From contig JAKSBG010000420.1 of the NCBI GenBank assembly GCA_022361255.1, positions 1-32,320 on the forward strand: a stretch of DNA of 32,320 bases. The letters are read 5' to 3'. Positions within the stretch are counted from its first letter, which is position 1. Each line of letters begins with the position of its first letter. The notes under the pieces were generated by a model, which was not told where the DNA came from, searched no databases, and saw nothing but the letters and a program-made list of their open reading frames with translations. Shown here in pieces: positions 12,701 through 29,556 of this stretch. This stretch comes from Verrucomicrobiales bacterium (GTDB lineage Bacteria; Verrucomicrobiota; Verrucomicrobiia; Verrucomicrobiales; DEV007). The position numbers were made by a program, and so were the translations under genes.

Positions 12701-13462
12701 ATGGGCAATATTTTTCCAAGGTGGACCAACCTCCTTGCCGTCAAGATTTTCCTTTGTCTTGGCGCGCTGGGGACCTGTGTAATCGCGGTGGCCTGGTATT
12801 CGTGGACGCCGAAGTACACCCGTGTGGGCTACATGCCCCAGCAACCGATTCCATTTGATCACAGCCTTCATGCAGGTCAGTTGGGAATGGATTGTCGTTA
12901 CTGCCACTCCTTTGTTGAGAACTCCGCACACTCCAACATTCCGACAGCGCAGGTTTGCTGGAATTGTCACGGGCCGGGGAAGGTGAAGTCCGATTCGCCT
13001 AAGCTGGAGCCACTCCGTGTTGCTATGGATGAGAATTACGAGGGTTACACGGGTGAGCCGATTCGCTGGGTGCAGCTGCACAAAACCCCGGATTATGCCT
13101 ATTTCGACCACTCCGTTCACGTCAATCGCGGTGTCAGCTGTGTGAAGTGCCACGGCAAGGTAAACGAAATGCCGGTTGTTTTTCATCACGAGCCTCTCAG
13201 TATGAGCTGGTGTCTTGATTGTCACCGGAATCCGGAAAAGGCCCTCCGGCCGGTGGACGAAGTGACAAATCTCGACTGGGAGCCGACAGATCTTGACCCG
13301 GATTCTTTCTACGAATATCTGGCCGGCAAGACAGACAAGACGGCCGAAGAGTTGAAAGAGGCGGATCAGGGCAAGGAGTGGGATCAGGAATTGATCGGGG
13401 CTCATTTGCAGCAGGCCTGGAATGTGAATCCTCCGCAGGACTGTGCGGCATGTCACCGTTGA
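12701..13462 (+). CDS. actA: alternative complex III pentaheme cytochrome c, ActA
   Basis: The 253-aa subunit of ACIII, the quinol:electron-acceptor oxidoreductase that replaces cytochrome bc1. An N-terminal membrane anchor covers about residues 11-33, followed by a periplasmic part with five CxxCH heme sites: CRYCH (65-69), CWNCH (86-90), CVKCH (147-151), CLDCH (171-175) and CAACH (248-252). The last lies one residue from the C-terminus. Additional His residues (FDHSLHAG, FDHSVHVN, FHHEPL) supply likely distal ligands in the pattern usual for ActA. It is the first gene of a large respiratory cluster. The start ATG has no Shine-Dalgarno. The next gene begins 28 nt downstream, counted from its preferred ATG. 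Confidence 0.93.
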   Translation: MGNIFPRWTNLLAVKIFLCLGALGTCVIAVAWYSWTPKYTRVGYMPQQPIPFDHSLHAGQLGMDCRYCHSFVENSAHSNIPTAQVCWNCHGPGKVKSDSPKLEPLRVAMDENYEGYTGEPIRWVQLHKTPDYAYFDHSVHVNRGVSCVKCHGKVNEMPVVFHHEPLSMSWCLDCHRNPEKALRPVDEVTNLDWEPTDLDPDSFYEYLAGKTDKTAEELKEADQGKEWDQELIGAHLQQAWNVNPPQDCAACHR

Positions 13463-13490
13463 TCGCGTAATTGAAATTTGTAACGACCTA

Positions 13491-16400
13491 ATGAAGCGAA
13501 AGTGGAATCATCCTGCCGAGCCTGAGGCGTCACGGACTCATTGGCGCAGTCTTGGCGAGCTTGAAAACTCAGAGGAGTTTCAGGGCTGGCTCGAGCGCGA
13601 GTTCCCTCAGGGGGCTGCCGAGCTGGAAATGGATGAAACTTCGCGGCGTAGTTTCGTGAAGTTGATGGGGGCGTCTACCGCTCTGGCCGGATTCGGAGTG
13701 TCCTGTTCGCGCCCGGTTCAGCACCTCGTGCCCTACAATGAGCATGTCGAGTGGATTGTTCCCGGAAAGGCTTTGTATTATTCCTCGGCCAAGCCCCGTC
13801 TCGGAGGGATTGGCTGTGATCCTCTGGTGGTGACCACTCACGAGGGTCGTCCGACAAAGGTTGACGGTAACCGGCTTCATCCGGTTTCATCCGGAGGTTC
13901 CACTGCTTATACTCAGGCGAGTATCCTCGAGATGTATGATCAGGATCGTTCCCGCGGTTTTCTGGAGGCGGGTAAGCCGTCCACGGGCGCTGCGTTTGAG
14001 GAAGGTTTTCTCAAGCCGCTTCGCGAAGGAAAGAGTGGGGAAAAGCTTGCTGTTCTCGTTTCTGAATCCACTTCTCCGACGCGTGAGGCCTTGCTTGGGC
14101 GGGTCAAAAAAGCGCTTCCCGGCCTGAAAATGTATTCCTATGAGGCGCTTCGTCCCAACGGGATGCGGGCCGCGGCAAAGGAATTGTATGGTGCGGGATC
14201 CATCCCTGTAGTGGATTTCTCCGGCGCGAAGCGTGTTCTTTCGCTGGATTGTGATTTTATGGGGCTTGAGGAGATCGGCGAGGGCTGCTCCTGTGGGTTC
14301 GCCGAATCGAGAAAGCCGGAGTTGGGTGACAAAATGAGTCGCTTTTACATGGCGGAGGCGGCTTTCAGCCTGACGGGCGGGATGGCAGATCATCGTTACC
14401 GCATCGCTCCTTCCCAGATTTTGCCTCTCACGGCTCTTCTTGCTGCCAAAATTGGGGAATTCCTTGGTGATGCTGCGCTTTCCGGTGTTGCGGCCAAGCT
14501 CGCGTCCAAGGTGACTCCTGAAGTGTATCGTGCTGACTGGATCGAGGAATGTGCCCGTGACTTTGCCGACAACAAGGGTGCTTCCATCGTGGTTGCTGGA
14601 GGGCGCCATCCGAAAGAGGTGCACTTGCTGGTTGCTGCAATCAACCAGGCGCTCGGAGCCTACTCCAGGTTTATCTCGGTTGTGGATCATCAGCTTCCTG
14701 AGTATGCCGGAATTAAGAGTCTCGTAGACGATATTCGATCCGGTGCGGTCGAGCGTCTTGTGGTTATGAATGAAGGGGATGTCGTTTTTGATGCCCCTGC
14801 GGAGCTGGATGTTGCCGGCGCCTTCAGTCAATTGAAAGAGTTGGTGCATCACGGGTATCGCGTAAATCAGACGGCTCGTCTCGCTCACTGGCATGTTCCG
14901 TCCACTCATTATCTCGAATCCTGGGGCGATCATTACAGTGTTTCCGGCTACTATTCGGTTCAGCAGCCGATGATCGATCCGCTCTGGGGTGGTGTTTCGG
15001 AGAATGTCTTTCTGTCCTCTATTCTCGCGGAGGGGGCTTCTGAGGAGACGGTCCTCGGTGAGGTGAAAAAGACTTTTGCGAAGCTCGGTAAGGGGAATTG
15101 GGCAAAGACTCTGCGCGATGGGTATCTTGATGGCAAGACTCTGCCGAAGAAGAAGTTCTCCGGAGAGGTTTCTCTTGATTCCGGATCCGTGAAGATTCCT
15201 GACCTTCCCTACAGTGAGGCGGTCGAGGTGACCTTTACGGTCAGTGGCGCGACTTACGACGGGCGGTTTGCCAATAACGGATGGTTGCAGGAGGCTCCGG
15301 ATCCCATCACAAAGCTCACCTGGGACAACGCGGCGCTGGTGAGTTTTCCCACAGCGATGGAGTTGGGGTTGGATGATGGTGATCTGATTGAGGTTTCCGT
15401 GGGTGAGCGTCGGGTGAAGATTCCGGTTCTCCGGTCGCCCGGTCACGCTGATTATACCCTCAGTATTCCGGTGGGTTACTACGGTGATCTTGCTGATGGT
15501 GCCGTAAGTCGGGGGGTCGGATTCAATGTGTATCCGCTGCGCACCTCATCGAGCGAGTTTATTCTCCCGGGTGCTTCGATCCGGAAGACCAAAGGAAAGC
15601 ACGATCTCGCCCTTACTGCGGAGCACTACAGCATGGAAGGTCGTGCGATCGCCCGCGAAGGGACGCTTGAGATGTTCAAGGAGGATGAGCATTTCGCCGG
15701 GCATCAGGGGATGGATCACCACATTCCTGAGAATATTTCCCTCTACAAGGGGCCGAACTACGAGACGGCTGAAAATCCTTCCGACAATGTTGTTGGAGTT
15801 CTGGATGGCCACGAGTTTCGTATCGACCCCAATCATCAATGGGCGATGACCATTGATTTGAATGCCTGCACTGGCTGTAATGCCTGTGTGATCGCCTGTC
15901 AGGCGGAAAACAACATTCCGATTGTCGGCAAAGACCAGGTGCTTGCAGGTCGTGAAATGCACTGGGTTCGGATGGACCGCTATTTCACCAGTCCGACCGA
16001 TGACAAGACGGTTGGGGAGCAGGGGACTGACTTCAAGAAGACGGAGGAATACAAGAACGGGAAATACGGTGAGCCGGGTCGTCGTGTTGTTGACAATGAC
16101 AACGTCGAAATGATTCCGGTTCCGGTCGCCTGCATGCAGTGCGAAAGTGCTCCCTGTGAGACGGTTTGTCCGGTTAATGCGACGGTTCACACAGCCGACG
16201 GTTTGAATGCGATGACCTACAATCGTTGCATCGGCACCCGCTACTGTGCGAATAACTGCCCTTACAAAGCGCGTCGTTTCAATTACTACGACTACAACAA
16301 GCGTCCGATTGAAAAAATCGAAGTGGGTGGAATCGAAGCGGAAGGATTCAAATTTGGACCGCTCGCGCCCGCGAGTGGCAATGCGACGACCACGCAGCGC

Positions 16401-16778
16401 CTCCAGAAGAATCCGAACGTATCTGTCAGGATGCGTGGTGTGATCGAGAAATGCACCTACTGCGTTCAGCGCATCACGGCAGCGAAGATTGCTGCGAAAG
16501 CGGCCGCTCGCGACTCTGCTGATATCATGGTCCCGACGAATTCGATAACGGTGGCCTGTCAGGATGCCTGCGGCGCTGATGCGGTCGTCTTCGGAAACCT
16601 GAAGGACCCCAAGGATAAGATTAATTCGAAGGCCGGAAAGAAAAATCCAAGAAATTACGAGTTGCTGAAGTATATCGGCACGAAGCCGCGCACCAGCTAT
16701 CTCGCTCGTGTGAAGAACCCGAACTCGAAAATGCCGGGAGCAGATCAGGTGGGAACTGTCACCTCGAAGATGCACTAA
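13491..16778 (+). CDS. actB: alternative complex III iron-sulfur/molybdopterin-oxidoreductase-like subunit, ActB
   Basis: The 1095-aa periplasmic subunit of ACIII. A twin-arginine signal (SRRSFVKLMGAS, R52-R53) is followed by Cys72, which may be lipidated as in some ActB proteins. A large domain related to molybdopterin oxidoreductases occupies about residues 75-700; in this family it binds no Mo cofactor. The C-terminal ferredoxin-like part carries four cysteine clusters: CTGCNACVIAC (from about 793), CMQCESAPCETVCP (881), CIGTRYCANNCP (913) and CTYC (988) with CQDAC (about 1023). In the third group Thr replaces a Cys, marking the 3Fe-4S site. Electrons pass from here to the ActA/ActE hemes. 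The frame opens at GTG 13443, overlapping actA, but ATG 13491 gives the family-like N-terminus MKRKWNHP. Confidence 0.94.
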   Translation: MKRKWNHPAEPEASRTHWRSLGELENSEEFQGWLEREFPQGAAELEMDETSRRSFVKLMGASTALAGFGVSCSRPVQHLVPYNEHVEWIVPGKALYYSSAKPRLGGIGCDPLVVTTHEGRPTKVDGNRLHPVSSGGSTAYTQASILEMYDQDRSRGFLEAGKPSTGAAFEEGFLKPLREGKSGEKLAVLVSESTSPTREALLGRVKKALPGLKMYSYEALRPNGMRAAAKELYGAGSIPVVDFSGAKRVLSLDCDFMGLEEIGEGCSCGFAESRKPELGDKMSRFYMAEAAFSLTGGMADHRYRIAPSQILPLTALLAAKIGEFLGDAALSGVAAKLASKVTPEVYRADWIEECARDFADNKGASIVVAGGRHPKEVHLLVAAINQALGAYSRFISVVDHQLPEYAGIKSLVDDIRSGAVERLVVMNEGDVVFDAPAELDVAGAFSQLKELVHHGYRVNQTARLAHWHVPSTHYLESWGDHYSVSGYYSVQQPMIDPLWGGVSENVFLSSILAEGASEETVLGEVKKTFAKLGKGNWAKTLRDGYLDGKTLPKKKFSGEVSLDSGSVKIPDLPYSEAVEVTFTVSGATYDGRFANNGWLQEAPDPITKLTWDNAALVSFPTAMELGLDDGDLIEVSVGERRVKIPVLRSPGHADYTLSIPVGYYGDLADGAVSRGVGFNVYPLRTSSSEFILPGASIRKTKGKHDLALTAEHYSMEGRAIAREGTLEMFKEDEHFAGHQGMDHHIPENISLYKGPNYETAENPSDNVVGVLDGHEFRIDPNHQWAMTIDLNACTGCNACVIACQAENNIPIVGKDQVLAGREMHWVRMDRYFTSPTDDKTVGEQGTDFKKTEEYKNGKYGEPGRRVVDNDNVEMIPVPVACMQCESAPCETVCPVNATVHTADGLNAMTYNRCIGTRYCANNCPYKARRFNYYDYNKRPIEKIEVGGIEAEGFKFGPLAPASGNATTTQRLQKNPNVSVRMRGVIEKCTYCVQRITAAKIAAKAAARDSADIMVPTNSITVACQDACGADAVVFGNLKDPKDKINSKAGKKNPRNYELLKYIGTKPRTSYLARVKNPNSKMPGADQVGTVTSKMH

Positions 16779-16802
16779 ACCGATTTACCGCTTTAACCGC
16801 AA

Positions 16803-18248
16803 ATGGCAGGAAATTCATCAGCAGATACTCAAGTCCATCCTTCTGAAGCAGAAGGAGTGGCCCGCGAACCGCTTGTTCTCAACAATCGGTCGATGGGCTG
16901 GATTACCGAGCGGATTTGCGGCATTGTCGAAAATCGCCAACCTCTCATCTGGTGGGTGCTCTTCGTGCCCTCTGTAGCCTTGTTCGGTTGCCTTCTTTTT
17001 ACCCTTTTCTATCTGGTCTCGACCGGTGTCGGGGTCTGGGGAAACAACCAGCCGGTTGCCTGGGGTTGGGCAATTGTGAACTTCGTGTTCTGGATTGGTA
17101 TCGGTCATGCGGGAACCCTGATTTCCGCGATTCTTTTCCTGACCAGGCAGAAGTGGCGGACATCTGTAAACCGGGCTTCTGAAGCGATGACGCTGATCGC
17201 GGTGATGTGCGCGGGGATTTATCCCGGGTTTCACGTCGGGCGATTCTGGATGGTTTGGTTCCTGGCTCCCATTCCGAACGCGAACGGAATCTGGCAGAAC
17301 TTCAAGAGTCCCCTTCTCTGGGACGTTTTTGCGGTCTCAACCTATTTCACTGTTTCGGTGATCTTCTGGTACATCGGACTGATTCCCGATCTTGCCACGC
17401 TGCGAGACCGTGCTTCCAAGAAGCTGCCGAAGTTTCTCTACGGATTTTTTGCCCTTGGCTGGCGCGGTGGAAACCGTCAGTGGCGCCACTACGAAATGGC
17501 CTATCTCCTTCTGGCTGCGCTCTCAACCCCTCTGGTTCTTTCGGTTCACTCTGTCGTCTCCTTTGACTTCGCAACGTCAGTGGTTCCGGGGTGGCACACG
17601 ACGATTTTCCCGCCCTACTTTGTTGCCGGTGCGATTTTCGGTGGTTTTGCCATGGTGCTCACTTTGATGCTTCCCGTTCGCAAGCTTTACGGGCTGGAGG
17701 ATATGATCACCGCCAAGCACATCGACAACATGGCGAAGATCATTCTTCTGACCGGGACCATCGTTGGTTACGCCTACATCATGGAGCTGTTCATCAGTTA
17801 CTACGGTGCCAACAAGTTCGAGTCGGACGCATTCCATCTGCGGATTTTGTCGGGGCCCTACACCTGGGCATACTACTGCATGTTCTTCTGCAACGTCATC
17901 GCTCCGCAGGTTTTCTGGTTCAAGTGGTGCCGTCACAATCTCTGGGTCGTTTTCATTATTGTGAACTTCGTGAACGCAGGAATGTGGTTTGAGCGATTTG
18001 TGATCATTCCGACTTCCATCGCACGGGACTTTCTTCCCGGTCAATGGGGTTACTACTCGCCTTCCTGGGTGGAGAAACTCATGTTCCTCGGAACCTTTGG
18101 GATGTTCCTCATGCTCTTCCTTCTCTTTATCCGGTTTCTCCCTGTCATCGCTGTTAGTGAGGTCAAAGGGGTTCTTCCGGAAGCGGATCCGCACTATCCC
18201 GATTGGAAGCGGCTTCGTGAAAAACGCCGTCAATCCTCTGCCTCGTGA
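16803..18248 (+). CDS. actC: alternative complex III membrane subunit ActC (NrfD/PsrC family)
   Basis: The 481-aa polytopic membrane protein is of the NrfD/PsrC type, with about ten transmembrane helices. In ACIII structures this subunit carries the quinol-oxidation site close to the ActB iron-sulfur clusters. Visible landmarks: [23 protein letters not shown] (TM1), [18 protein letters not shown] (TM2), [46 protein letters not shown], and [30 protein letters not shown] with the conserved His and Asp expected near the quinol and proton path. The hydrophilic N-terminus (1-45) is cytoplasmic and typical in length. It follows actB by 24 nt. The start ATG lacks a Shine-Dalgarno. Confidence 0.94.
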
Positions 18249-18267
18249 CTTTTAACCCGTAGTAACT

Positions 18268-18825
18268 GTGAGCACTGCAACTGACAAATCATCCAGCCTG
18301 TTCGGCTACGTAGCGGAGTTTTCCTCTGCGAGCGAGTTGTATCATGCCGCCGAAAAAATCCGCGATGCGGGTTTTCGACGCTGGGATGTGCACACTCCGT
18401 ATCCCGTTCACGGAATGGACCACGCGATGGGACTCGGGAAAAGCTGGCTCTCCGCAGTTGTTCTCTGCGGTGGAGCAACCGGTTCCCTGGTGGCCCTGTT
18501 CATGCAGTTCTTCACGCAGGTAACTCTGTATCCCACGGTGGTGCAAAACAAGCCGACGAACCTCTTTACGATCCCGGCCTTCTTCCCTGTCACTTTTGAG
18601 CTCACGATCCTGCTCTCCGCATTCGCGACGCTTTTTGGGCTTTTGATTTTTATTATGCTTCCGCGTTGGAATCACCCGCTCTTCAACTCCCGGTTGTTTT
18701 CAAAGTTTTCTGATGACGGATTCATCATGGTGGTCGAAGCACGGGACCCGAAATTTAAGAAAGAGGAAACCCGTGATTTTCTGAAAGAGATTGGTGCGGA
18801 AGGCATCGAAGAAGTCGCAAACTGA
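18268..18825 (+). CDS. actD: alternative complex III membrane subunit ActD (DUF3341)
   Basis: The 185-aa DUF3341 protein is a structural subunit of ACIII with two transmembrane helices. The N-terminal soluble part contains FGYVAEFSSASELYHAAEKIRDAGFRR and the family signature W-D-V-HTPYPVHGMDHAMGL. TM1 follows (about 60-85, LSAVVLCGGATGSLVALFMQFF), then TM2 (about 105-132). A later NPLFN-like motif appears as WNHPLFNSRLF, followed by a cytoplasmic tail. It starts with GTG at 18268, 19 nt after actC; no ATG is available in a better position. In ACIII it packs against the membrane core and has no cofactor. Confidence 0.93.
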   Translation: MSTATDKSSSLFGYVAEFSSASELYHAAEKIRDAGFRRWDVHTPYPVHGMDHAMGLGKSWLSAVVLCGGATGSLVALFMQFFTQVTLYPTVVQNKPTNLFTIPAFFPVTFELTILLSAFATLFGLLIFIMLPRWNHPLFNSRLFSKFSDDGFIMVVEARDPKFKKEETRDFLKEIGAEGIEEVAN

Positions 18826-18839
18826 ACGAAGTAACTGGA

Positions 18840-19460
18840 ATGCGTTGGTTTTTTCTCATATTGGCAATTGCAGTCGTAGCCACTGCTGTTGCGCTTGGAC
18901 CCCGGGGTGAAAAATTCTCCGATCCTCCTTTTGAATTGTTTAACGACATGGATCGCCAGTACAAACAGCGTCCACAGAAGTCGAGCAACATCTTCGACGA
19001 CGGAAAAGGTGCCCGCAAACCTGTCGCCGGCACTGTCCCGATCGGGTTCAAATTTCCCCACGCGGGCAACGAGAAAGATCTCGCCTCGGATCTGGATTTC
19101 AGCGCAGGAGACGATTTTTACAACACGGGTCTGTTCGGAGATTTTTACGGCAAGGGTTATCCGAAGAATCTGACGATTGATGAGGAATTCCTCGCCCGCG
19201 GTAAGGAGCGCTATCAGATTACCTGCACCCCTTGCCATGGTGAATCAGGCAATGGCCAGGGTGTCGTTTCGAAATACTGGGCCATTCCACCTTCTGCAAA
19301 TTTGATCGATCCGCGCGTCAAAGCCATGCCCGAGGGGCAGCTTTACTGGACGATTACCCACGGCAAAGGCCTCATGGGTCCCTATAACGGAGTTGTTTCA
19401 GTGCGGGATCGATGGGCGATCGTCGCTTATGTCAGGGCGCTGCAGGCAGCTGCCGAGTAA
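18840..19460 (+). CDS. actE: alternative complex III monoheme cytochrome c, ActE
   Basis: The 206-aa membrane-anchored cytochrome c of ACIII. An uncleaved or signal-type hydrophobic N-terminus (residues 1-20) precedes a linker and a class I cytochrome c domain with CTPCH at 129-133 and a probable axial Met179 in GLMGPY. The usual ActE stretch GKERYQITCTPCHGESGNGQG is present. No lipobox Cys is seen after the signal, unlike some ActE proteins described as lipoproteins. The inferred job is to hand electrons from ActA/ActB to the downstream cytochrome or oxidase. It begins 14 nt after actD. Confidence 0.93.
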   Translation: MRWFFLILAIAVVATAVALGPRGEKFSDPPFELFNDMDRQYKQRPQKSSNIFDDGKGARKPVAGTVPIGFKFPHAGNEKDLASDLDFSAGDDFYNTGLFGDFYGKGYPKNLTIDEEFLARGKERYQITCTPCHGESGNGQGVVSKYWAIPPSANLIDPRVKAMPEGQLYWTITHGKGLMGPYNGVVSVRDRWAIVAYVRALQAAAE

Positions 19461-19490
19461 TTTTTTCGATTTATCTGCATTTTCTATCTC

Positions 19491-20996
19491 ATGGCTGGTT
19501 TGAAAGACGGTGACGATTTTAAGGACGGAGAGTTTTTTAAGGCTCCTTCGGCCCTCAAGTTTCTCTGCCTGCTGATTGGCGGCGGGGGAACAATCCTGTT
19601 TCTCGTGATGGCGCTGTTCTGGGGCGAGAAAGCGGGTGAAATGGGATACAGCTGGCTTTTTGCAGTGGTATTCTTTCTCTCTCTTACGGTGGGGGGGCTT
19701 TTCTGGACCCTGCTGCACAATGCTTCCAACTCCGGCTGGGGAATTGTGATTCGCCGACTGATGGAAAACCTGGCAAGCATGATTCCATTCATGCTGATTC
19801 TCGGTCTTCCGCTTGTCTTAACGATGTTTGGATTCCGCGATAAATTGTGGGAATGGTTCCCTCAGCGGGAAGCCGCACTGACAGAAGCTCGTGCAAAGGC
19901 AGAGAAAAGTGCTCCGGAATACATTCAGAAGCACGAGAAGCAGTTGAAAGAGGCGAAAGCTGCTCTTGCCGCCGAAAAATCCAAGCTCGCATCGATCACC
20001 GATCCGAGTCCCGGACACCGGGCACATTTCGACCGCAGTATCGCGGGTTTGCAGAGTCGGGTCGAGTCAATCGAGTCCGAGGATATGTCAGAAGAGGCGG
20101 TAAACGACAAGCTTGTTGAAAAATACTACCGCAAGGCCAATGCGCTTCTCGCCGTGAAGGAAGGGTTTCTCAATCCTGCTGCGTGGAATATTCGCTATCT
20201 CTTCTACCTGCTCGTTCTCACGGCGATCGCCTGGATTCTGCGCAGTTGGTCAATCAAGCAGGATAAAGACGGCGATCCGAAATGGCTTCGTTTGGCGCGC
20301 CGCTGGAGTTGTGGATTTCTGCCGTTCTTTGCAACCGCCTGGACCTTTCTCGTGATCGACTGGCTTATGGCGCTGGATTACACGTGGTTTTCGACGATGT
20401 GGGGTGTCTATCTTTTCGCTGGCTGCGCTTTGAATTCGATGGGGCTTCTCGTGATTGTTCTCACACTTCTCCGCCGTGCCGGGTATCTGAAGAACGTAGT
20501 CACAATGGAGCACTACCATCTGATGGGTAAGTTGATGCTCGCGTTCACGATCTTCTGGGCCTACATCGCTTTCTCTCAGTTTTTCCTGATCTGGTATGCC
20601 AACATCACAGAGGAAACCAAGTTCTACCTGACCCGTAACAGTGATTTCTGGAACGTTTACACGATTACCTTCCTCGTCATCGGGCATTTCTTTATCCCTT
20701 TTGTCGTTCTTCTGATCCAGAAGGTGAAAAAGCTTCCCCATGTCCTCTCGGCGGTTGCGGTTTGGAACCTGGTAATGCATGTCCTCGACATCTACTGGAT
20801 CATTATTCCGGAGCGTGGACCCTCCCTGACCAACGGGGAAAAAATGGTGATGCCCGGAGCGATCGTTTTTGATATTCTCGCCTTTATCAGTGTTGCCGGG
20901 TTGTTCGGCTACTTTCTGCTCCGCCAACTGGGCACGGCGAGCCTTTTTCCCTGCCGCGACCCTCGTCTCGACGAGTCGCTGAATGTTGTTAACTGA
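19491..20996 (+). CDS. actF: alternative complex III membrane subunit ActF with a coiled-coil insertion
   Basis: The 501-aa second NrfD-like membrane subunit of ACIII, homologous to ActC and thought to help form proton paths. Helices TM1-TM3 lie at about residues 21-45, 55-75 and 93-113, and seven more follow from about 230 (YLFYLLVLTAIAWIL) to 485. Landmarks include SWSIKQDKDGDPKWLRLARRWS, WTFLVIDWLMALDYTWFSTMWGVYLFAG and MEHYHLMGKLMLAFTIFWAYIAFSQF. Between TM3 and TM4, residues about 125-205 form an unusual charged, Ala/Glu/Lys-rich segment predicted to be coiled coil (TEARAKAEKSAPEYIQ, KEAKAALAAEKSKLAS). The usual ActF has only a short loop here. It is followed at 23 nt by a small membrane protein. 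Confidence 0.91.
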   Translation: MAGLKDGDDFKDGEFFKAPSALKFLCLLIGGGGTILFLVMALFWGEKAGEMGYSWLFAVVFFLSLTVGGLFWTLLHNASNSGWGIVIRRLMENLASMIPFMLILGLPLVLTMFGFRDKLWEWFPQREAALTEARAKAEKSAPEYIQKHEKQLKEAKAALAAEKSKLASITDPSPGHRAHFDRSIAGLQSRVESIESEDMSEEAVNDKLVEKYYRKANALLAVKEGFLNPAAWNIRYLFYLLVLTAIAWILRSWSIKQDKDGDPKWLRLARRWSCGFLPFFATAWTFLVIDWLMALDYTWFSTMWGVYLFAGCALNSMGLLVIVLTLLRRAGYLKNVVTMEHYHLMGKLMLAFTIFWAYIAFSQFFLIWYANITEETKFYLTRNSDFWNVYTITFLVIGHFFIPFVVLLIQKVKKLPHVLSAVAVWNLVMHVLDIYWIIIPERGPSLTNGEKMVMPGAIVFDILAFISVAGLFGYFLLRQLGTASLFPCRDPRLDESLNVVN

Positions 20997-21019: not shown

Positions 21020-21493
21020 ATGAGTAGCTCGACTTCATCCTTTCAGTTTCCCCTGAAATATATCGCGGGAACGCTGGGGCTTTTTGCGGTCTTTGGATTT
21101 CTCGCCATGGTCCTTTCGGGGTTCGCGGGGCGCGAATCAATTGAGGACCGTGCCTACAAGGGTGTTTTCAGCGCTGAGGTCACTGACGCCCGCATCGCGA
21201 ACCGGGAAGAAGTTCTTGCGGCGCAGGCGGAGCTTGTTGACGAGGAGAAAGTAAACAAAGCCCTTGCTGCGATTGCGAAGGCTCCTGCGGCAGAATCCAA
21301 GTCAGCCGTGGTTGTTCCGGGTTCCCCCACCTTTATGAAGCAGATGGAGGAGCAGGCAAAGGCCGATGAAAAGCCGAAGGCCGATGAAAAGCCGGAAGCT
21401 CCTGCGGAAAAGGCGGAGGAGAAGCCGAAGGTCGAAAAGAAACCTGCTGCGGAAACGCCGAAGAAAGACGCGGCTGCAGAGGAGAAAAAGTAA
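21020..21493 (+). CDS. small membrane protein with Lys/Glu/Pro/Ala-rich tail, between ACIII and ccoN-like genes
   Basis: The 157-aa protein has one transmembrane helix (about residues 12-35, LKYIAGTLGLFAVFGFLAMVLSG) and a hydrophilic segment with REEVLAAQAELVDEEKVNKAL. The low-complexity tail from about residue 107 is built of repeated K-A-D-E-K-P units and is probably disordered. Two copies of an 18-bp repeat encode part of that tail. I do not recognise a family. The helix-plus-R/E-rich arrangement loosely recalls small proteins found with respiratory oxidase operons in related phyla, but this is weak. Its position (23 nt after actF, 33 nt before the ccoN-like ATG) says it is co-expressed and may be an accessory or assembly subunit. 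Confidence 0.7.
   Translation: MSSSTSSFQFPLKYIAGTLGLFAVFGFLAMVLSGFAGRESIEDRAYKGVFSAEVTDARIANREEVLAAQAELVDEEKVNKALAAIAKAPAAESKSAVVVPGSPTFMKQMEEQAKADEKPKADEKPEAPAEKAEEKPKVEKKPAAETPKKDAAAEEKK
21359..21394 (+). repeat. two tandem 18-bp repeats inside the small membrane protein gene
   Basis: The unit AAGGCCGATGAAAAGCCG occurs at 21359-21376 and again, unchanged, at 21377-21394, encoding K-A-D-E-K-P twice. Perfect identity suggests recent duplication by slippage, so copy number may vary between strains. Confidence 0.8.
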
Positions 21494-21526: not shown

Positions 21527-22987
21527 ATGACAGTTCCACAACCAACACCGGAGGAGATTGAGGAGCGTGCAACGATTGATCGTTCCACACGCTACCCGGT
21601 GATGTTTTTCTTCACCAGCGCGGCTGCATGGCTTCTCGCCGCAACCGTTCTCGGATTTCTCAGCTCTTTGAAGATGCGTGTCCCGGGGCTCCGGGATGAC
21701 TGTCAATTCATGGGCTACGGGAGGCTCTTTCCCGCCCATATGAACGCCCTCGTCTACGGATGGGCGATGCAGGCAGGAATCGGGGTTGCTCTGTGGTTAA
21801 TGGCACGCTTGACCCGTACCCCTTTGCGTCACAGTGTCGCGATTTTGGTTACGGGCCATCTTTGGAATGCTGCGGTTACTCTGTCCGTGATTACCGTCTG
21901 GTTCGGATTCGGGAAATCCATTCCCCTGCTTGATTTCCCGACCTGGGTTTGGCCGGTGGTGGCAATTGCCTACGCGTTGACCGTAATGTGGGTCGTTCCG
22001 ATGTTCCGCACCCGTCGTGAAGGGGTTCCCTACATATCCGAGATGTTTATCGTGGGGGCTGTTCTCTGGTTCCCGTGGATTTTCATTACCGCAAACGTTC
22101 TCATTAATAAGGGAACAGCACCCGTGATGGGAGCGGGACTCGGTGCCTGGTTTATCTCAAATCTCAGTTATTTCTGGATGGCACCCGTTTCCCTGGCGGT
22201 CGCATACTACATCATTCCGAAGATTTCGGGTCGCCCGATTTTCAGTTATCCTCTCGCGCATGCCAGCTTCTGGCTTCTTGCCTTCCTCGCCGGTTGGACC
22301 GGATTCTCCCGCTATATGGGTGGACCTTTCCCCGCGTGGATGTCAGCCGTCAGCGGAGCAGCTGCGATTTTTATCCTCCTTGCGATCCTCGCAACCGTGG
22401 TGAACCTGATGATTTCACTTCGAGGATGTTCCAAGCTGTGGAAATACAGTCCCTCACTCCGGTTCACCGTTTTCGGAATGTTGATGCTGGCAATCTACGC
22501 CATTCTTTCTGCTGCCAGCTCTACTTATTCTTTCGGGAAAGATCTCCAGTTCACGCACTTTGTTGCCGGTCTCGATATTCTCGCATTCTACGGATTTTTC
22601 TCGATGACCATTTTCGGGGCGATCTATTTCATCGTTCCGCGGATTACGGGTTCGGAATGGCCCTCCGGCAGCAGGATCCGGATTCATTTCTGGTTCAGCA
22701 CCTATGGAATTGTCACGGTAATTGTCGCAACACTCGTCGGTGGAGTAGCTCAGGGCGGCGATCTTGCGATCTGGGACCGGGCGTTTTCCGTTTCGTTTGT
22801 TAATTCAACCGCCTCGATTGTCGGACGTATTGTTGCATGGGCTCTGATTGGTTACTCCAATCTTCTTTTCCTCATCCAACTCTACCAGATGTTCATCGGG
22901 AAGGGACGTAAGTCAGAGGGCCCGACCCTCCTTCACAGCGAACCCGGTAAAGCAGGCAGCGCCAAGGCTGCCGCAGGCCTCTCTTAA
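21527..22987 (+). CDS. CcoN-like membrane protein lacking copper-B and most heme ligands
   Basis: The 486-aa polytopic protein is clearly related to subunit I of cbb3 oxidases. GYGRLFPAHMNALVYGW matches the canonical GRLRPLHT..A region and keeps its low-spin heme His (H71). AYYIIPKISGRPIFSYPLAHASFW aligns without gaps to the canonical YYFVPK..ERP.YSYRLSIVHFW. Ligands of the active site are missing by the same gap-free alignment: the copper-B His of WYGHN is S211, the His-His pair of AGPHHLH is S261-R262, the cross-linked Tyr is A255, and the two His of GHVHSGALG are L349 and I351. H344 is the nearest other His. It therefore should not reduce oxygen. It is probably a structural or electron-relay partner of the CcoO-like protein encoded next. 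The start is ATG 21527, not TTG 21500. Confidence 0.85.
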   Translation: MTVPQPTPEEIEERATIDRSTRYPVMFFFTSAAAWLLAATVLGFLSSLKMRVPGLRDDCQFMGYGRLFPAHMNALVYGWAMQAGIGVALWLMARLTRTPLRHSVAILVTGHLWNAAVTLSVITVWFGFGKSIPLLDFPTWVWPVVAIAYALTVMWVVPMFRTRREGVPYISEMFIVGAVLWFPWIFITANVLINKGTAPVMGAGLGAWFISNLSYFWMAPVSLAVAYYIIPKISGRPIFSYPLAHASFWLLAFLAGWTGFSRYMGGPFPAWMSAVSGAAAIFILLAILATVVNLMISLRGCSKLWKYSPSLRFTVFGMLMLAIYAILSAASSTYSFGKDLQFTHFVAGLDILAFYGFFSMTIFGAIYFIVPRITGSEWPSGSRIRIHFWFSTYGIVTVIVATLVGGVAQGGDLAIWDRAFSVSFVNSTASIVGRIVAWALIGYSNLLFLIQLYQMFIGKGRKSEGPTLLHSEPGKAGSAKAAAGLS

Positions 22988-23005: not shown

Positions 23006-23617
23006 ATGAAGTTTGATCGTTTTGCCAAATTGATTGCCGGAATTTCTCTGGCATTTGCGCTACCGTGGATTTTCCTGGTCATCGTGCCGTTCATCCAGGG
23101 CTCGAATCTTGAGCCGGTCCCCTATCCGGAAGGGCAGGAAGTGGACGGCGGTATCGCTGCATACCCGGATCCCACCCTCTATCGGAATGGTTCCAGCGAT
23201 TACGGTCGTCAGATTTATGCCGCAGAAGGTTGCGCATACTGCCACACCCAGGTGATCCGCCCTACTTACGCGGGAGCTGATATGTGGCGTCCCGGTTGGG
23301 GCGGTCGCGAGGAAGATGGTCTTGCCCGTGAAACTCAGGCCCGTGACTATCTTCAAGAGGAAATTGCTCCACTGGGATACCAGCGAATCGGTCCAGACCT
23401 GTCCAATGTCGGGCACCGGATTACGGAACGGGAGCTGATGCATCGCCATCTCTCCGATCCCCGCAGTCTCGACCCCGACAGTGGGATGCCTGCTTTCCTT
23501 CATTTGTACGAAGAATCTCCGGACGGCGAGGATCTCAAGCCGACGAAAAAAGCGGAAGCTCTCGTGGATTACCTTCTTTCTCTGAAGAAGGACCAACCGC
23601 TTCCGGGTAAAGGCTAA
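23006..23617 (+). CDS. ccoO: CcoO-like monoheme cytochrome c subunit
   Basis: The 203-aa product resembles the membrane-anchored cytochrome c subunit CcoO/FixO of cbb3 oxidases. It has one N-terminal transmembrane helix (about 8-30), then GRQIYAAEGCAYCHTQVIRP with heme Cys76, Cys79 and His80, which is the CcoO signature (G-C-x-x-C-H-S/T-Q-x-I-R-P). Next come RIGPDLSNVGHRITERELMHRHLSDPRS and an axial-ligand-type GMPAF. It is shorter in the middle than some CcoO proteins. It directly follows the CcoN-like gene by 18 nt, so it probably still pairs with it, even though that subunit lacks an active site. The inferred role is electron transfer between ACIII and the aa3-type oxidase. The symbol reflects homology, not proven function. 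Confidence 0.85.
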   Translation: MKFDRFAKLIAGISLAFALPWIFLVIVPFIQGSNLEPVPYPEGQEVDGGIAAYPDPTLYRNGSSDYGRQIYAAEGCAYCHTQVIRPTYAGADMWRPGWGGREEDGLARETQARDYLQEEIAPLGYQRIGPDLSNVGHRITERELMHRHLSDPRSLDPDSGMPAFLHLYEESPDGEDLKPTKKAEALVDYLLSLKKDQPLPGKG

Positions 23618-23645: not shown

Positions 23646-24380
23646 ATGGCCAGCGAAGAAAACAACAATATCGACTATGAGCAGGGCACTGTCAGTGCAG
23701 CCGATCTCCACGACTCCGTGCGCCGTGAAAATGCGCTTCATCCTGGAGGGAAGGGGACTGTCGGGGTTTCTGTTTTGGTAGTCAGTGCTTTTATTCTCAT
23801 TCTCGGGGGAGGTCAGCTCTTCAGTACCAGCAACGGATTTCGCGACAGCATTTACGTGAACAATGATTACGTTCCGGCAGCCCGGCCTTCGCTGGGAGGC
23901 GATGATGGTGGCGGCGCGGAAGTTGCCTGGATCGACGACTGGATGAAAGACGGGAAGAAGGTTTACAACAACTGCATCGCCTGTCACCAGGCTTCTGGTC
24001 TGGGCATCCCCGGTCAGTTTCCGCCGCTCGTTGGTTCTGAGTGGGTAGACGGAGGCACTTCACGTCTCGGAGCCATCCTTCTTCACGGGATCAATGGTCC
24101 GTTCAAAGTCGGCGGGCAGACATACAATCAGTTGATGCCGGCGTGGAACAATTTGAGCGATGAGAAGATTGCGCAGGTCATTACTTACATCCGGCGCGAA
24201 TTTGGAACCCTGCCCGAAGGTGACGAGGGTGTGGTTACCACTGAAATGATTCAAGCCGCGCGCGACAAGTTCAGCGGTCAGGCCGCTCCCTACACGGAAG
24301 CGGAGCTTCTGGCGATCCCGGCGGATGAAAACCTTTCCGGCGCAAAAGTGGACCTGCAAACCGGCGATCCACTACCATAG
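23646..24380 (+). CDS. membrane-anchored monoheme cytochrome c in the CcoP position
   Basis: The 244-aa protein has a hydrophilic N-terminus, one transmembrane helix (about 38-58), and one class I cytochrome c domain with CIACH at 110-114 and a likely axial Met in QLMPAW. A hydrophilic tail of about 50 residues follows the domain. It sits where ccoP would be, but CcoP carries two hemes and this has one, and the N-terminus lacks the usual CcoP motif. It is better described as a cytochrome c that could accept electrons from ACIII or the CcoO-like subunit and pass them to CuA of the oxidase encoded downstream. A 94-nt gap, the largest in this part of the cluster, separates it from the subunit I gene; I see no convincing promoter or terminator in that gap. 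Confidence 0.85.
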   Translation: MASEENNNIDYEQGTVSAADLHDSVRRENALHPGGKGTVGVSVLVVSAFILILGGGQLFSTSNGFRDSIYVNNDYVPAARPSLGGDDGGGAEVAWIDDWMKDGKKVYNNCIACHQASGLGIPGQFPPLVGSEWVDGGTSRLGAILLHGINGPFKVGGQTYNQLMPAWNNLSDEKIAQVITYIRREFGTLPEGDEGVVTTEMIQAARDKFSGQAAPYTEAELLAIPADENLSGAKVDLQTGDPLP

Positions 24381-24474: not shown

Positions 24475-26400
24475 ATGAGCACAGTTACCGAACAGACCGC
24501 AGACTCGGTCCATGAGGGGCACGATCACCACGATCATTACGAGCCTTTTTGGAAGAAATACATCTTCTCCACCGATCACAAAACGATCGGCATCCAATAC
24601 GGATTTACTTCGCTCGTGTTTCTCGCCTTCGGGTTCTTCCTGATGATGGTGATGCGGTGGAGCATTGCCTACCCGGACCGCGCGGTGCCTCTTCTTGCGG
24701 ACTGGCCCTGGTTCCAGGCGTGGCTCGATGACGGCGGAAAAGTCACGGGCGACCTTTACAATATGTTCGGTGCGATGCACGGGACCATCATGGTTTTCCT
24801 CGGCGTTGTCCCCCTCGCGTTCGGTGCCTTTGGTAACTACGTGACTCCCCTTCAGATTGGCGCCGTCGATATGGCGTTTCCACGGCTGAACATGGCGAGT
24901 TACTGGTTTTTCCTGCTTGGTGGTGTGCTGATGTTTGTCAGCTTCTTCCTTCCGTCAGGAGCTGCGAAAGCAGGTTGGACAAACTACTCCCCGCTCGCGA
25001 CCACTACGGACCTCCATTACGGCGACTTGTTCTGGACCGGTCAAACGCAGTGGCTCATGGGGATGGTGTTTCTGATCTCCTCCTCGCTTCTCGGTGCCGT
25101 GAACTTCATCTGTACGATCATCAACCTTCGTTGTCAGGGCATGACCTGGATGCGGTTGCCTTTCTTTGTCTGGGCGATGCTCGTAACAGGTTTTCTGCTG
25201 CTGCTTGCGTTCCCTCCTCTTGAGGTGGCCGCCATCATGCAGCTGATGGACCGGATGGCCGGAACAAGTTTTTACATTCCGACCGGGTTGAATGTGAGTG
25301 GAATGGCCTTCGACGCAGCAGGTGGAGGTAGTCCGCTTTTGTATCAGCACCTTTTCTGGTTTCTCGCTCACCCGGAGGTTTACGTCCTGATTCTTCCCGC
25401 CATCGCGATCGTTTCGGAGATTATCCCGTGCAACACCCGTAAGCCTCTCTGGGGTTACAAGACGATGGTCTATGCGGTGATGGTTCTCGGATTCCTTGCC
25501 TTCATCGTGTGGGCTCACCACATGTATATCACCGGCATGGGGCCCGCGATTTCGACGTTCTTCCAGACGACGACTGTTCTCATCTCGGTTCCGTCCGTAA
25601 TTCTGATTACCTCGCTGCTCATTTCGATGTGGGGTGGTTCCATCCGGTTCAACACGCCCATGTTGTTTGCGACCGCTTTCATTCCGATGTTTGGAATCGG
25701 TGGGCTTACCGGGCTTCCGCTCGCATTCAGTCTGCCGGATCTGCACCTTCACGACACCTATTATGTGATTGGTCACTTCCACTACGTGGTCGCACCGGGG
25801 ACTATCTTTGCCCTTTTTGCAGGTATCTACCACTGGTATCCGAAAATGACCGGCCGGATGATGAGTGAGCGTCTCGGCCAGCTGCATTTCTGGCCTTCAT
25901 TGATTCTCATGAACGGTATCTTTGCTCCGATGATGTTCCAGGGTATGGCCGGCTTCCACCGACGTGCCTTTGATGGCGGCAAGGCCTACGAGCAAATCAG
26001 CAACCAGGTTTTTGCTGAAGCCAACGGGTTCATCGCAAATATCTGTGAACTTCTTGGTATCGTCGGAAAAAATGAGCCCGTTCTGATGATCGATTTGAAC
26101 ATTGTGACGTCGACATCTGCGTGGTTGCTTGCCGTTTTCCAGGTTCCTTTCATTATCAACCTGTTCATCAGTGGCAAATTCGGCAAGAAAGCCAAAGGCG
26201 ACAATCCCTGGGATGCCACGACTCTCGACTGGGCGACTCCGACGCCGCCGCCGCACGGGAACTTCATCGGTGAGCCGGTTGCCTATCGTGGACCTTACGA
26301 ATACAGCGTGCCGGGAGCAGAAACGGACTTTACTCCTCAGGGGGAAAAGGATCCTGTGATTGTTTCCACTGCGGAAGGAGAGCAGGAGAAGCCTGCATAA
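24475..26400 (+). CDS. ctaD: cytochrome c oxidase subunit I (A-type, aa3)
   Basis: The 641-aa catalytic subunit, reducing oxygen to water and pumping protons. All ligands are present: heme a H102 (MHGTIMVF) and H436; heme a3 H434 (GHFHYV); copper B H299 (AHPEVY), H348 and H349; cross-linked Tyr303. The D-channel is intact: N121, D132, N139 and E301, which defines an A1-type oxidase. The K-channel is not: the canonical V-P-T-G-I-K motif reads V-P-S-V-I-L here, putting Leu377 where the essential Lys belongs. The N-terminus has a His-rich stretch (HEGHDHHDHYE, residues 13-23) and the protein has about 80 extra residues, partly in a polar C-terminal tail. The start ATG has no Shine-Dalgarno. It is followed 57 nt later by subunit III. 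Confidence 0.96.
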   Translation: MSTVTEQTADSVHEGHDHHDHYEPFWKKYIFSTDHKTIGIQYGFTSLVFLAFGFFLMMVMRWSIAYPDRAVPLLADWPWFQAWLDDGGKVTGDLYNMFGAMHGTIMVFLGVVPLAFGAFGNYVTPLQIGAVDMAFPRLNMASYWFFLLGGVLMFVSFFLPSGAAKAGWTNYSPLATTTDLHYGDLFWTGQTQWLMGMVFLISSSLLGAVNFICTIINLRCQGMTWMRLPFFVWAMLVTGFLLLLAFPPLEVAAIMQLMDRMAGTSFYIPTGLNVSGMAFDAAGGGSPLLYQHLFWFLAHPEVYVLILPAIAIVSEIIPCNTRKPLWGYKTMVYAVMVLGFLAFIVWAHHMYITGMGPAISTFFQTTTVLISVPSVILITSLLISMWGGSIRFNTPMLFATAFIPMFGIGGLTGLPLAFSLPDLHLHDTYYVIGHFHYVVAPGTIFALFAGIYHWYPKMTGRMMSERLGQLHFWPSLILMNGIFAPMMFQGMAGFHRRAFDGGKAYEQISNQVFAEANGFIANICELLGIVGKNEPVLMIDLNIVTSTSAWLLAVFQVPFIINLFISGKFGKKAKGDNPWDATTLDWATPTPPPHGNFIGEPVAYRGPYEYSVPGAETDFTPQGEKDPVIVSTAEGEQEKPA

Positions 26401-26457: not shown

Positions 26458-27900
26458 ATGGAGATTCCCTACGAAGTGAAACCCCGCCGGGACACGGGCC
26501 TCTACAACGCCAAGCTTGGAGTATGGCTCTTCCTTGCTTCCGAGGTGATGTTGTTTGGCGGATTGTTCTCCGCATATGTCTTTCTTCGCACCGGCATCCA
26601 GGACGGAGTGGACAATCCCTGGCCCTGGGGACTGAATGTTCACAAGGGCTTCGTCTGGCTGGGCTTTCTCAACACGCTGGTCCTGATTGCCTCTTCTGTC
26701 GGCGTCGTTTTTGCCTGGGTGGCTTTGAAAGAAAGAAACTGGCGCAAGTATCAGATCTACATGTATTTCGTCGTGGCCTGCGCCGTCGTATTCATGTGCG
26801 TCAAAACCGTTGAGTACAACAGCAAGCTGAACAAGCACCACGGCATCAAGCTGGTCGACAATTCCGTGATGGAAGGAACTATTCTGGAGAAAACTGACCG
26901 GATCCGTTTCGAAGGAAACAGGGCAGTATTCGGGCTCCAGGGAGCTCTTCCCGCCTTTCTCAAAGATATCAGCGATGAGGACTTTCCCGCTTTCACCGCC
27001 ACGGTTCAATTTAAAGACGATGAAGATCCGCAGGTGACAGAGATCTCATCTGAATCTCAATTTAAGAAATGGTTCCATCAGAACCGGCGGACGGCATCGA
27101 AGAAGCTGACTGCTGAGAGACGCCGCTATCGTGCAGAAATGGAGGAGTTCGGTAAAGCCGCTCCGGTAAGCCTCAACACTTCGGCGACCGTCGTTGCCAG
27201 TGAGCCGTTTCAGGTCAATGCCAAGCCCACGAAGGTGGTGGGCCATTCCGACAGCTCTGTGAACTATCGTGACGGATCCAAGGTGGAAGGAAAACTGATC
27301 AGTGATGACGTGAAGTTCGTGATGCACGAAGTTGACCTGCAGCTGGTTCTTCCGCAGAAGCAGCGCGATTCCATCATTTGGGATGTCATTAATGATGAGA
27401 GTGCCAAGCAGCAGTTTTTCGCGAAGCAGCAGAAGCACTACGAGGAAATGAGGGATTACTACGAAGCTCGCGGAGAGACAATTCCGGAGAAAATGCTTCG
27501 CGGTCACATGCTCAATCTTCAAACCATTGATCACGAAGATCATGGTGATCACGAAGAACACCATGGAGAAGCCCCTCACAAGAGTGAGGCGAAGCACTCT
27601 GCCGGCGGAGGTCACGGAGATCACAGCTACATCACTGTTCCTCGTGACAAAATCAAGTTCATGGGGAATCACGGTCCCCGATACGGCAATTACTACGCGC
27701 TCTATTTCACAATGACTGCCCTCCACGGATTGCACGTTGTCGGCGGTGCGCTGGTCCTGCTGTTCTTCACTGTTTTTGGTAAGAAGCTGTATCTCAAGAA
27801 CCCGGAACACCTCGCAAACCGGGTCGAAGTGGGCGGATTGTTCTGGCACTTTGTGGATTTGATCTGGATCTTCCTTTTCCCGCTGATGTATCTCCTGTAG
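26458..27900 (+). CDS. ctaE: cytochrome c oxidase subunit III with a large central insertion
   Basis: The 480-aa protein is about twice the usual ~200 aa of five-helix bacterial subunit III. The N-terminal part has three helices: AKLGVWLFLASEVMLFGGLFSAYVFLR, WLGFLNTLVLIASSVGVVFAW and a helix at about 98-120. The C-terminal part has YYALYFTMTALHGLHVVGGALVLL and VGGLFWHFVDLIWIFLFPLMYLL, both family signatures. Between them, about residues 121-400 form a polar insertion, including a charged middle region and a His-rich stretch at about 357-392 (HEDHGDHEEHHGE). The reading frame is continuous across the junctions, so this is one protein rather than an assembly artefact. Subunit III stabilises subunit I and its D-channel; the insertion's role is unknown, with metal binding or docking of another subunit possible. 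Confidence 0.9.
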   Translation: MEIPYEVKPRRDTGLYNAKLGVWLFLASEVMLFGGLFSAYVFLRTGIQDGVDNPWPWGLNVHKGFVWLGFLNTLVLIASSVGVVFAWVALKERNWRKYQIYMYFVVACAVVFMCVKTVEYNSKLNKHHGIKLVDNSVMEGTILEKTDRIRFEGNRAVFGLQGALPAFLKDISDEDFPAFTATVQFKDDEDPQVTEISSESQFKKWFHQNRRTASKKLTAERRRYRAEMEEFGKAAPVSLNTSATVVASEPFQVNAKPTKVVGHSDSSVNYRDGSKVEGKLISDDVKFVMHEVDLQLVLPQKQRDSIIWDVINDESAKQQFFAKQQKHYEEMRDYYEARGETIPEKMLRGHMLNLQTIDHEDHGDHEEHHGEAPHKSEAKHSAGGGHGDHSYITVPRDKIKFMGNHGPRYGNYYALYFTMTALHGLHVVGGALVLLFFTVFGKKLYLKNPEHLANRVEVGGLFWHFVDLIWIFLFPLMYLL

Positions 27901-27952: not shown

Positions 27953-28321
27953 ATGGCAGAAGAAACTCACGATTGGGATAAGCACAAAAAGACGTACTGG
28001 GCTGTTGGTATTGCTCTTTTCGTGTTCACCGGCGTTACTTTGGCTCTCGGACTTGTGCCGATTCTGGATCTGGGCCCTCCGGGACCGACTCCTGCTGATT
28101 TTGTGATTGGACTTGCCGTGGCAGGGACGAAAGCAACTTTGGTTTCGTTGATTTTCATGCACCTGAACCACGAGAAGGGCCTGATTTACAAGACGCTGCT
28201 CTTTACCTTTCTCTTCTTTGTCGGACTGATGGCATTGACGCTGTTTGCAGGCGCGGATCCCATCATTGAGCAGTATGATACCCGCGAGACAACCAACGGG
28301 AAACTTGTGGAAAAACCATAA
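27953..28321 (+). CDS. ctaF: cytochrome c oxidase subunit IV (prokaryotic type)
   Basis: The 122-aa protein has three transmembrane helices (about 16-36, 46-70 and 80-100), matching the prokaryotic COX4 family: THDWDKHKKTYWAVGIALFVFTGVTLALG at the start, and VAGTKATLVSLIFMHLNHEKGLIYKTLL, in which the K-A-x-LV-x-x-F-MHL pattern is diagnostic. It is an accessory subunit that stabilises the oxidase. The C-terminus is polar and extended. It lies 52 nt after the subunit III gene and 18 nt before a small two-helix protein. The symbol ctaF is by family position. Confidence 0.88.
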   Translation: MAEETHDWDKHKKTYWAVGIALFVFTGVTLALGLVPILDLGPPGPTPADFVIGLAVAGTKATLVSLIFMHLNHEKGLIYKTLLFTFLFFVGLMALTLFAGADPIIEQYDTRETTNGKLVEKP

Positions 28322-28791: not shown

Positions 28792-29556
28792 ATGATTGAG
28801 TGGATTAACGATATCGCCGGAATGCATGAAATTGCATCCCGTCACGGTCACGTCGGGAACCATATGCTGGCTCTCATTCACTGGTTTATGGCGATTCTTT
28901 TCGTAGGGTGGTCGATCTTTCTTTTTGTGATCCTTTACAAGTTCCGGAGAAAAAAGAATCCGAAGGCCAGTTATGCCGGGATGACATCTCACTTCTCCAC
29001 TCACGTGGAAATCGGCGTCGTTATTGTTGAGGTCGTGCTCCTCCTTGGATTCGCGTTCCCGCTCTGGGCAAAGCGTGCTGATAAAAACATTCGCCCCACT
29101 GGCGATGAAGTGGTGAACCTCCGTGCGGTCGGGGAGCAGTATCGCTGGACCTTCCACTATGCCGGAAAGGATAACATGGTGGGAATTACTGACCACGAAA
29201 GGATTTCCGGAGCCAACCCGGTAGGCCTCGTTGCCGAGGATCCGAACGCGGCGGATGATTTTGTTTCTGTAAACGAGCTCGTCGTTCCCGTCGGCCGTCC
29301 TGTCGTGATCCAGGTTACCTCCAAAGATGTGATTCACGGTCTTGCGATCGTTCCGATGTTCTCGCAGCAGGACGCGATCCCCGGATCTGAGATTCCGATG
29401 TGGTTTATTCCCGAAAAAGAAGGGGAGTGGAACATCGTTTGTGCCCAGCTCTGCGGTGCAGGGCACGCGCAGATGGTGGCTTTCGTTAGCGCTGTCAGTT
29501 CGGAGGAGTTTGATGAGTGGAACAACTCTCAGAATCCTCTTCTGCCGAAGCAGTGA
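28792..29556 (+). CDS. ctaC: cytochrome c oxidase subunit II (CuA)
   Basis: The 254-aa subunit receives electrons from cytochrome c at the dinuclear CuA centre. Two transmembrane helices lie at about 25-50 and 72-93, followed by the periplasmic cupredoxin domain. CuA ligands are H182 (DVIHGLAIV), C217 and C221 (CAQLCGAGH), H225 and M228. GEQYRWTFHYAG is the aromatic electron-entry region and DAIPGSEIPMWF follows. There is no C-terminal cytochrome c fusion, so this is an aa3 rather than a fused caa3 enzyme, and a separate cytochrome c from the cluster is expected to be the donor. Its gene comes after subunits I, III and IV, whereas subunit II more often comes first. It ends 30 nt before a terminator-like hairpin. 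Confidence 0.95.
   Translation: MIEWINDIAGMHEIASRHGHVGNHMLALIHWFMAILFVGWSIFLFVILYKFRRKKNPKASYAGMTSHFSTHVEIGVVIVEVVLLLGFAFPLWAKRADKNIRPTGDEVVNLRAVGEQYRWTFHYAGKDNMVGITDHERISGANPVGLVAEDPNAADDFVSVNELVVPVGRPVVIQVTSKDVIHGLAIVPMFSQQDAIPGSEIPMWFIPEKEGEWNIVCAQLCGAGHAQMVAFVSAVSSEEFDEWNNSQNPLLPKQ

Follow-up and report, generated by a model that had tools for sequence, protein, structure and literature searches.

The membrane part of alternative complex III (ACIII) is free of redox cofactors, and its electrons leave via periplasmic haems (PMC5928083). In Flavobacterium johnsoniae, ActE is dispensable for electron transfer to aa3 (PMC8552683), so that other exits from ACIII must exist. For verrucomicrobial methanotrophs, a cbb3 oxidase has been stated to lie beside ACIII (PMC8498564); the cbb3 of methanotrophs has been tied to a high O2 affinity (PMC6688271) and is also given in PMC11102522 and PMC10205796. 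Here we analyzed a stretch of 32,320 nucleotides from a member of the Verrucomicrobiales (contig JAKSBG010000420.1), which as a whole will be referred to as the window and in which a homologue of CcoN is encoded between ACIII genes and the genes of an aa3 oxidase. This homologue will be referred to as NX, and its CcoO-like and CcoP-like neighbours as OX and PX.

The + strand of the window carries a run of 17 genes with intergenic gaps of mostly 14-94 bases (Table 1). ActA-F (12701-20996) are followed by a small protein, NX, OX and PX and then by the aa3 genes in the order CtaD-CtaE-subunit IV-CtaC; ctaA-, ctaB- and SCO-like genes are also part of the run. Act gene names in the window were assigned by sequence reading and synteny. 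OX matches FixO (8e-17) with a score below the ccoO equivalog cut-off, and with its CxxCH it represents the mono-haem c CcoO partner of the C-family. In CtaE (480 aa), a charged insert (31% His/Glu/Asp/Lys) splits two parts that match subunit III. The frame of NX has no internal stop, as the first-pass annotation had reported, and its base composition equals that of the neighbouring genes. Besides NX, the source genome encodes an ordinary fused CcoN-CcoO (G000:C486, 614 bits), whose translation and row in the tree alignment show intact ligands.

Table 1. Genes of the act-NX-cta run and catalytic positions of NX; positions are those of the window.
Feature	Position	Strand	Description	Basis
ActA	12701..13462	+	ActA-like penta-haem c subunit of ACIII, 5 CxxCH	motif count, synteny
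ActB	13443..16778	+	ActB-like, molybdoprotein-like and FeS domains	sequence reading, synteny
ActC	16803..18248	+	ActC-like NrfD-type membrane subunit	sequence reading, synteny
ActD	18268..18825	+	ActD-like subunit	sequence reading, synteny
ActE	18840..19460	+	ActE-like mono-haem c	profile match, motif
ActF	19491..20996	+	ActF-like membrane subunit	sequence reading, synteny
Small protein	21020..21493	+	Pro/Lys/Glu-rich, membrane-anchored, between ActF and NX	no family match; rarely conserved
NX	21527..22987	+	ligand-less CcoN homologue, 486 aa, 12-helix haem-copper-oxidase fold	profile match, alignment, AlphaFold2
NX H71	21737..21739	+	equals CcoN His60 (low-spin haem b), sole remaining ligand	alignment to 3mk7
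NX S211	22157..22159	+	replaces CuB His207	alignment to 3mk7
NX A255	22289..22291	+	replaces cross-linked Tyr251	alignment to 3mk7
NX S261-R262	22307..22312	+	replace CuB His257-His258	alignment to 3mk7
NX L349-D350-I351	22571..22579	+	replace haem ligands His345-x-His347, helix X	alignment to 3mk7
OX	23006..23617	+	CcoO-like membrane-anchored mono-haem c, CxxCH at residue 76	profile match, motif
PX	23646..24380	+	CcoP/cytochrome-c-like mono-haem c, CxxCH at residue 110	profile match, motif
CtaD	24475..26400	+	aa3-type subunit I; every ligand motif of a working oxidase present (MHG, HPEVY, HH, GHFHY)	profile match, motifs
CtaE	26458..27900	+	subunit III with long charged insert	profile match
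Subunit IV	27953..28321	+	oxidase subunit IV	profile match
CtaC	28792..29556	+	subunit II; CuA motif present, haem-c motif absent	profile match, motifs

NX matches Pfam COX1 (9e-38), within which cbb3 subunit I is its nearest family, and P. stutzeri CcoN (3mk7; phmmer, 2e-20), and with 100 bits against TIGR00780 (ccoN) it stays below the equivalog cut-off of 583. An AlphaFold2 model (pLDDT 90.6, pTM 0.92) superimposed on 3mk7_D with a Z score of 45.8 and 2.1 A over 443 residues, indicating the CcoN fold over the whole length with the 12 helices of a C-family subunit I. Since the CcoN fold is intact in the model, the ligands are not rescued by a change of fold. Alignment to 3mk7 demonstrated that NX differs from CcoN at six of seven catalytic positions, and the residues named in the first-pass annotation (S211, S261, R262, A255, L349, I351) proved to be exact. 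All three CuB histidines are thus missing; L349 and I351 stand in for H345 and H347, so that the haem b3 ligand and one of the two low-spin haem b ligands are gone as well and only H60 is kept, as H71. Tyr251 is lost together with two of the residues Y237, S240 and Y317, which we take to be those of the K-channel (A244 and L321; only Y241 is kept), and E122 of CcoN corresponds to P133. With the catalytic residues gone, the fold retained and purifying selection acting on the gene, NX has the properties of a pseudoenzyme, and judged by its sequence it is close to certain to be a non-oxidase.

Purifying selection is apparent from dN/dS values of 0.022-0.101, obtained by NG86 for nine genus pairs, with dS near saturation in some of them. 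The ligand loss is common, with small variations, to 29 order-level homologues and was also found in 53 homologues, overlapping with the 29, from a scan of relatives' contigs that kept 80 of 364 relatives, all of them Verrucomicrobiota. None of the order homologues examined in this operon slot has the full ligand set; the loss is shared by all of them, a sequencing error being ruled out thereby. Among the variations, the Prosthecobacter/Brevifollis group retains the equivalent of His207; cultured strains with the ligand-less form are Brevifollis gellanilyticus and Persicirhabdus sediminis. One genome of the window's genus has, in addition to a ligand-less NX (L017), another NX-OX-PX set, which is ligand-complete and lies on a 9-kb contig devoid of act genes (L115, G017:C166). 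Genus g4 of family f2 of the same order (20 genomes listed, many of 2.2-3.5 Mb) is without NX altogether.

H71 had been proposed to be the only ligand left, which is true for the window but does not extend to the order. Most members of the window's genus and several order groups retain the histidine, whereas the position is Phe in L025, L028, L030, L178-L182, L184 and others; the majority of ligand-less members have Phe, Ala, Ser or Gln there. These findings bear on the idea that NX holds one haem b by H71 and some other ligand and relays electrons from ACIII to aa3. Two less changed ligand-less members, L131 (HNAQRYH at the seven positions) and L228 (HNSQRYH), do retain both low-spin haem ligands H60 and H347, and the groups that keep H71 would also fit. 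H347 is nevertheless lost from NX of the window, and among 52 order homologues H387 is the sole invariant histidine with no second one near H71, by which a new haem ligand set was ruled out as well. Taken together with the variation at H71, a haem relay appears unlikely.

To place NX in a wider context, eighty regions of at most 20 kb each from the class Verrucomicrobiia were compared, many of them metagenome assemblies and several single-contig genomes. The order ActABCDEF-NX-OX-PX is present in nearly all of them. NX in this slot is ligand-complete in 22 loci (HHYHHHH, or HRYHHHH in L130) and otherwise ligand-less; the two forms will be referred to as live and dead, respectively. The dead set amounts to 63 rows, genus representatives included, and the counts exclude L223-L226 (family f67, other class) and L104/L110/L112, which are ligand-complete CcoN-like genes outside the act operon. 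Independently of any alignment, the motifs HH[LMFV] and [GA]HxH were both present in 22/22 live and 0/63 dead homologues, and the mean number of histidines was 18 in the former versus 8 in the latter. L130 (G157:C100), in which one CuB His is changed to Arg and the rest is complete, stands near fully dead lineages; the loss may be just beginning there, or the assembly may be in error. L079, L127 and L129 carry, upstream of NX, an additional cytochrome c gene of the PX type.

In G063, G185 and G058, no COX1 match other than live NX was found, and CydA (cytochrome bd) is absent from G063 and G185, which are 98-99% complete. As live NX is thus the sole terminal oxidase found in G063 and G185, it is very likely a working oxidase. 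Nearly every genome with dead NX that was checked carries another strong COX1. The exception is G091 (L105, 95% complete), in which CydA is present and no other COX1 was found; a second COX1 may possibly sit on a missing contig.

The distribution of the two forms raises the question of how often the centre was lost. In the full NX tree all 63 dead rows were joined (SH-aLRT 98), which would point to one ancient loss. In the ActB+ActC tree, live and dead states are intermixed with 16 changes, at least 11 of them forced by well-supported branches, and their clustering is no stronger than with shuffled labels (168 of 500 shuffles were as low). The ActF and OX trees gave 14 and 10 changes, respectively. 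Long branches are at play in the full NX tree: without the longest rows, the NX tree agrees with the Act clades, for which it requires the minimum of 2 changes, and this subset tree shows 6 live/dead changes. Forcing a single dead clade costs 62 log-likelihood units with an AU p of 0.017, which is indicative as the group was named after the first tree had been seen. Furthermore, by identity, 47 of the 63 dead rows resemble live NX from within their Act clade more than any dead NX from a different one. A single ancient loss was rejected on the grounds of the ActB+ActC tree, the identity comparison and the AU test. Given the subset NX tree, the AU test and the identity comparison, it is also improbable that one such loss was followed by horizontal replacement of NX that mixed the states on the ActB+ActC tree; horizontal replacement inside a clade is possible. 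The changes are read as losses because a regain of seven ligands is implausible. These findings suggest that oxidase activity was lost on repeated occasions while NX itself persisted.

The first-pass annotation had held that ligand-complete homologues in sister species would imply sequencing error or recent decay. Such homologues do exist in the same slot, in the wider class, and L130 with its single missing CuB His might be taken for decay in progress. The dead state in the window's lineage, however, is old and under selection and arose many times elsewhere; frames are open in nearly all members, and a pseudogene or sequencing error is ruled out by the dN/dS values together with the wide conservation across the order. 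Recent decay in any of these forms is therefore extremely improbable, and the original view of NX as a conserved non-oxidase rather than a pseudogene is well supported, also by the haem-c partners, which are retained.

Indeed, CxxCH of OX is retained in 55/55 dead loci and that of PX in all dead loci where the PX gene was found. ActA, B, C, E and F occur all together with NX-OX-PX in 16/18 live and 47/50 dead testable loci, a conserved place in act operons as expected for a subunit of ACIII. NX had also been proposed to connect ACIII with the aa3 oxidase, which is supported in part. The association of NX with ACIII is very strong, but 32/52 dead loci have no ctaD downstream within the stretch read and G091 has dead NX with no other haem-copper oxidase found. 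ctaD lies downstream in 20/52 dead and 5/20 live loci (Fisher p 0.41), and no correlation of the dead state with a downstream aa3 was shown. The same counts weigh on the possibility that NX helps to assemble the neighbouring oxidase, or to insert its cofactors, and stays outside the mature complex: NX-OX-PX do lie directly upstream of the cta genes in the window, but with the tie to Act, OX and PX nearly constant and that to ctaD so loose, such a function is very unlikely.

We then compared the positions that are invariant in live NX, scored as kept if present in at least 70% of dead NX, with the topology inferred from the model helices. Of these, 0/7 ligand/Tyr and 0/3 K-channel positions are kept, as opposed to 9/17 in periplasmic loops and 39/95 in the membrane. 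The best-conserved residues of dead NX are structural (W35, P53, G65, R66, G78, W113, N114, P138, as well as P183, W184, W208, P267, P269, W271, G394 and G406), and many dead sequences share 25-35% identity, indicating fast divergence. A 12-helix membrane protein under selection, encoded in the operon of a complex without membrane cofactors (PMC5928083), might serve as a cofactor-free ion or proton path or as a regulator of energy conservation by ACIII. This is doubtful, since the K-channel residues are lost and the conserved membrane residues are mostly Gly, Pro and Trp with few protonatable ones (R66, R94, K232, R372, H387).

The reading we prefer is that NX is a pseudo-oxidase, a former CcoN that would now act as a cofactor-free membrane scaffold for OX and PX on ACIII, to which we assign a probability of roughly 0.6. 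CcoO normally hands electrons to haem b of CcoN; once haem b has been lost from NX, the only role left to OX and PX is that of a periplasmic chain of haem c, and NX is taken to be what fastens this chain to ACIII in the membrane. The ancestral CcoN would have reduced O2 in an operon-linked assembly of the ACIII-CcoNO type. NX, still with the CcoN fold, would hold OX and PX, both of them membrane-bound haem-c proteins, close to ACIII to form the electron outlet of this complex, and electrons would pass from ActA/ActE via OX/PX to CuA of the adjacent aa3 in the window and to another acceptor where aa3 is not nearby. The physical complex, the electron path and the scaffold role are inferred. Repeated loss of the centre with retention of the protein fits a structural second function that was already present in the live form. 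Three observations count against a scaffold: H71 is kept in many members of the order, so that one bound haem in NX is possible; ligand-less NX diverges fast, which is not expected for a tightly packed scaffold; and no single partner oxidase is common to all dead loci. In a more general form, ACIII of the Verrucomicrobiota would be an enlarged complex, ActABCDEF-NX-OX-PX, with an absorbed cbb3-like oxidase that lost its centre some ten or more times while the protein and its haem-c arms were kept as electron outlet, the 'cbb3' of the methanotrophs being one such dead module; we consider the odds of this broader proposal to be even.

The methanotrophs enter through family f12 of the window's class, all ten genomes of which (2.2-2.5 Mb) contain pmoA-family genes and which presumably corresponds to the Methylacidiphilaceae. 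A ccoN above cut-off was detected in none of these ten genomes. In the eight genomes read, NX lies beside ACIII with ADAAHQT, ADAAHQI or SESSHFV at the seven positions (L101, L102, L106, L111, L113, L116-L118). The published 'cbb3 next to ACIII' of methanotrophs is thus probably no oxidase, and the argument that methanotrophic Verrucomicrobia possess cbb3 and hence a high O2 affinity probably rests on a dead subunit. Annotation at the family level will repeat this misassignment of cbb3 across the phylum.

Compared with CcoN of the cbb3-type (C-family) oxidase (3mk7), NX is homologous, has the same fold over its whole length and adjoins a CcoO-like partner. It differs in that the CuB ligands, the cross-linked Tyr, the haem b3 ligand and one low-spin haem ligand are absent, the K-channel is changed and the score lies far below the ccoN equivalog cut-off. 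In the open-access literature we found no prior report of a conserved haem-copper oxidase subunit I without its centre. The operon of an ACIII-linked C-type oxidase described for Opitutaceae and verrucomicrobial methanotrophs (PMC8498564, citing Refojo 2010) has the same layout, and the live NX loci match it; there the subunit is treated as a working cbb3, whereas 63 rows in our analysis, those of the methanotroph type included, are without the active site. The locus also resembles the ACIII-aa3/caa3 supercomplexes of F. johnsoniae and Rhodothermus marinus, in which the ACIII operon is followed by the oxidase and electrons are handed over directly, as would be the case at our locus; unlike in those systems, an NX/OX/PX module is present, which is not among the described subunits ActA-ActH (PMC5928083, PMC8552683). 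The repeated loss of the centre bears on how ACIII hands electrons over. The core proteins of bc1 are former enzymes that now serve a structural purpose in a respiratory complex. In contrast to these, it is the oxidase itself that was deprived of its centre at our locus and its relatives, several times over and in one operon slot, which represents a natural experiment on the non-catalytic role of an oxidase subunit.
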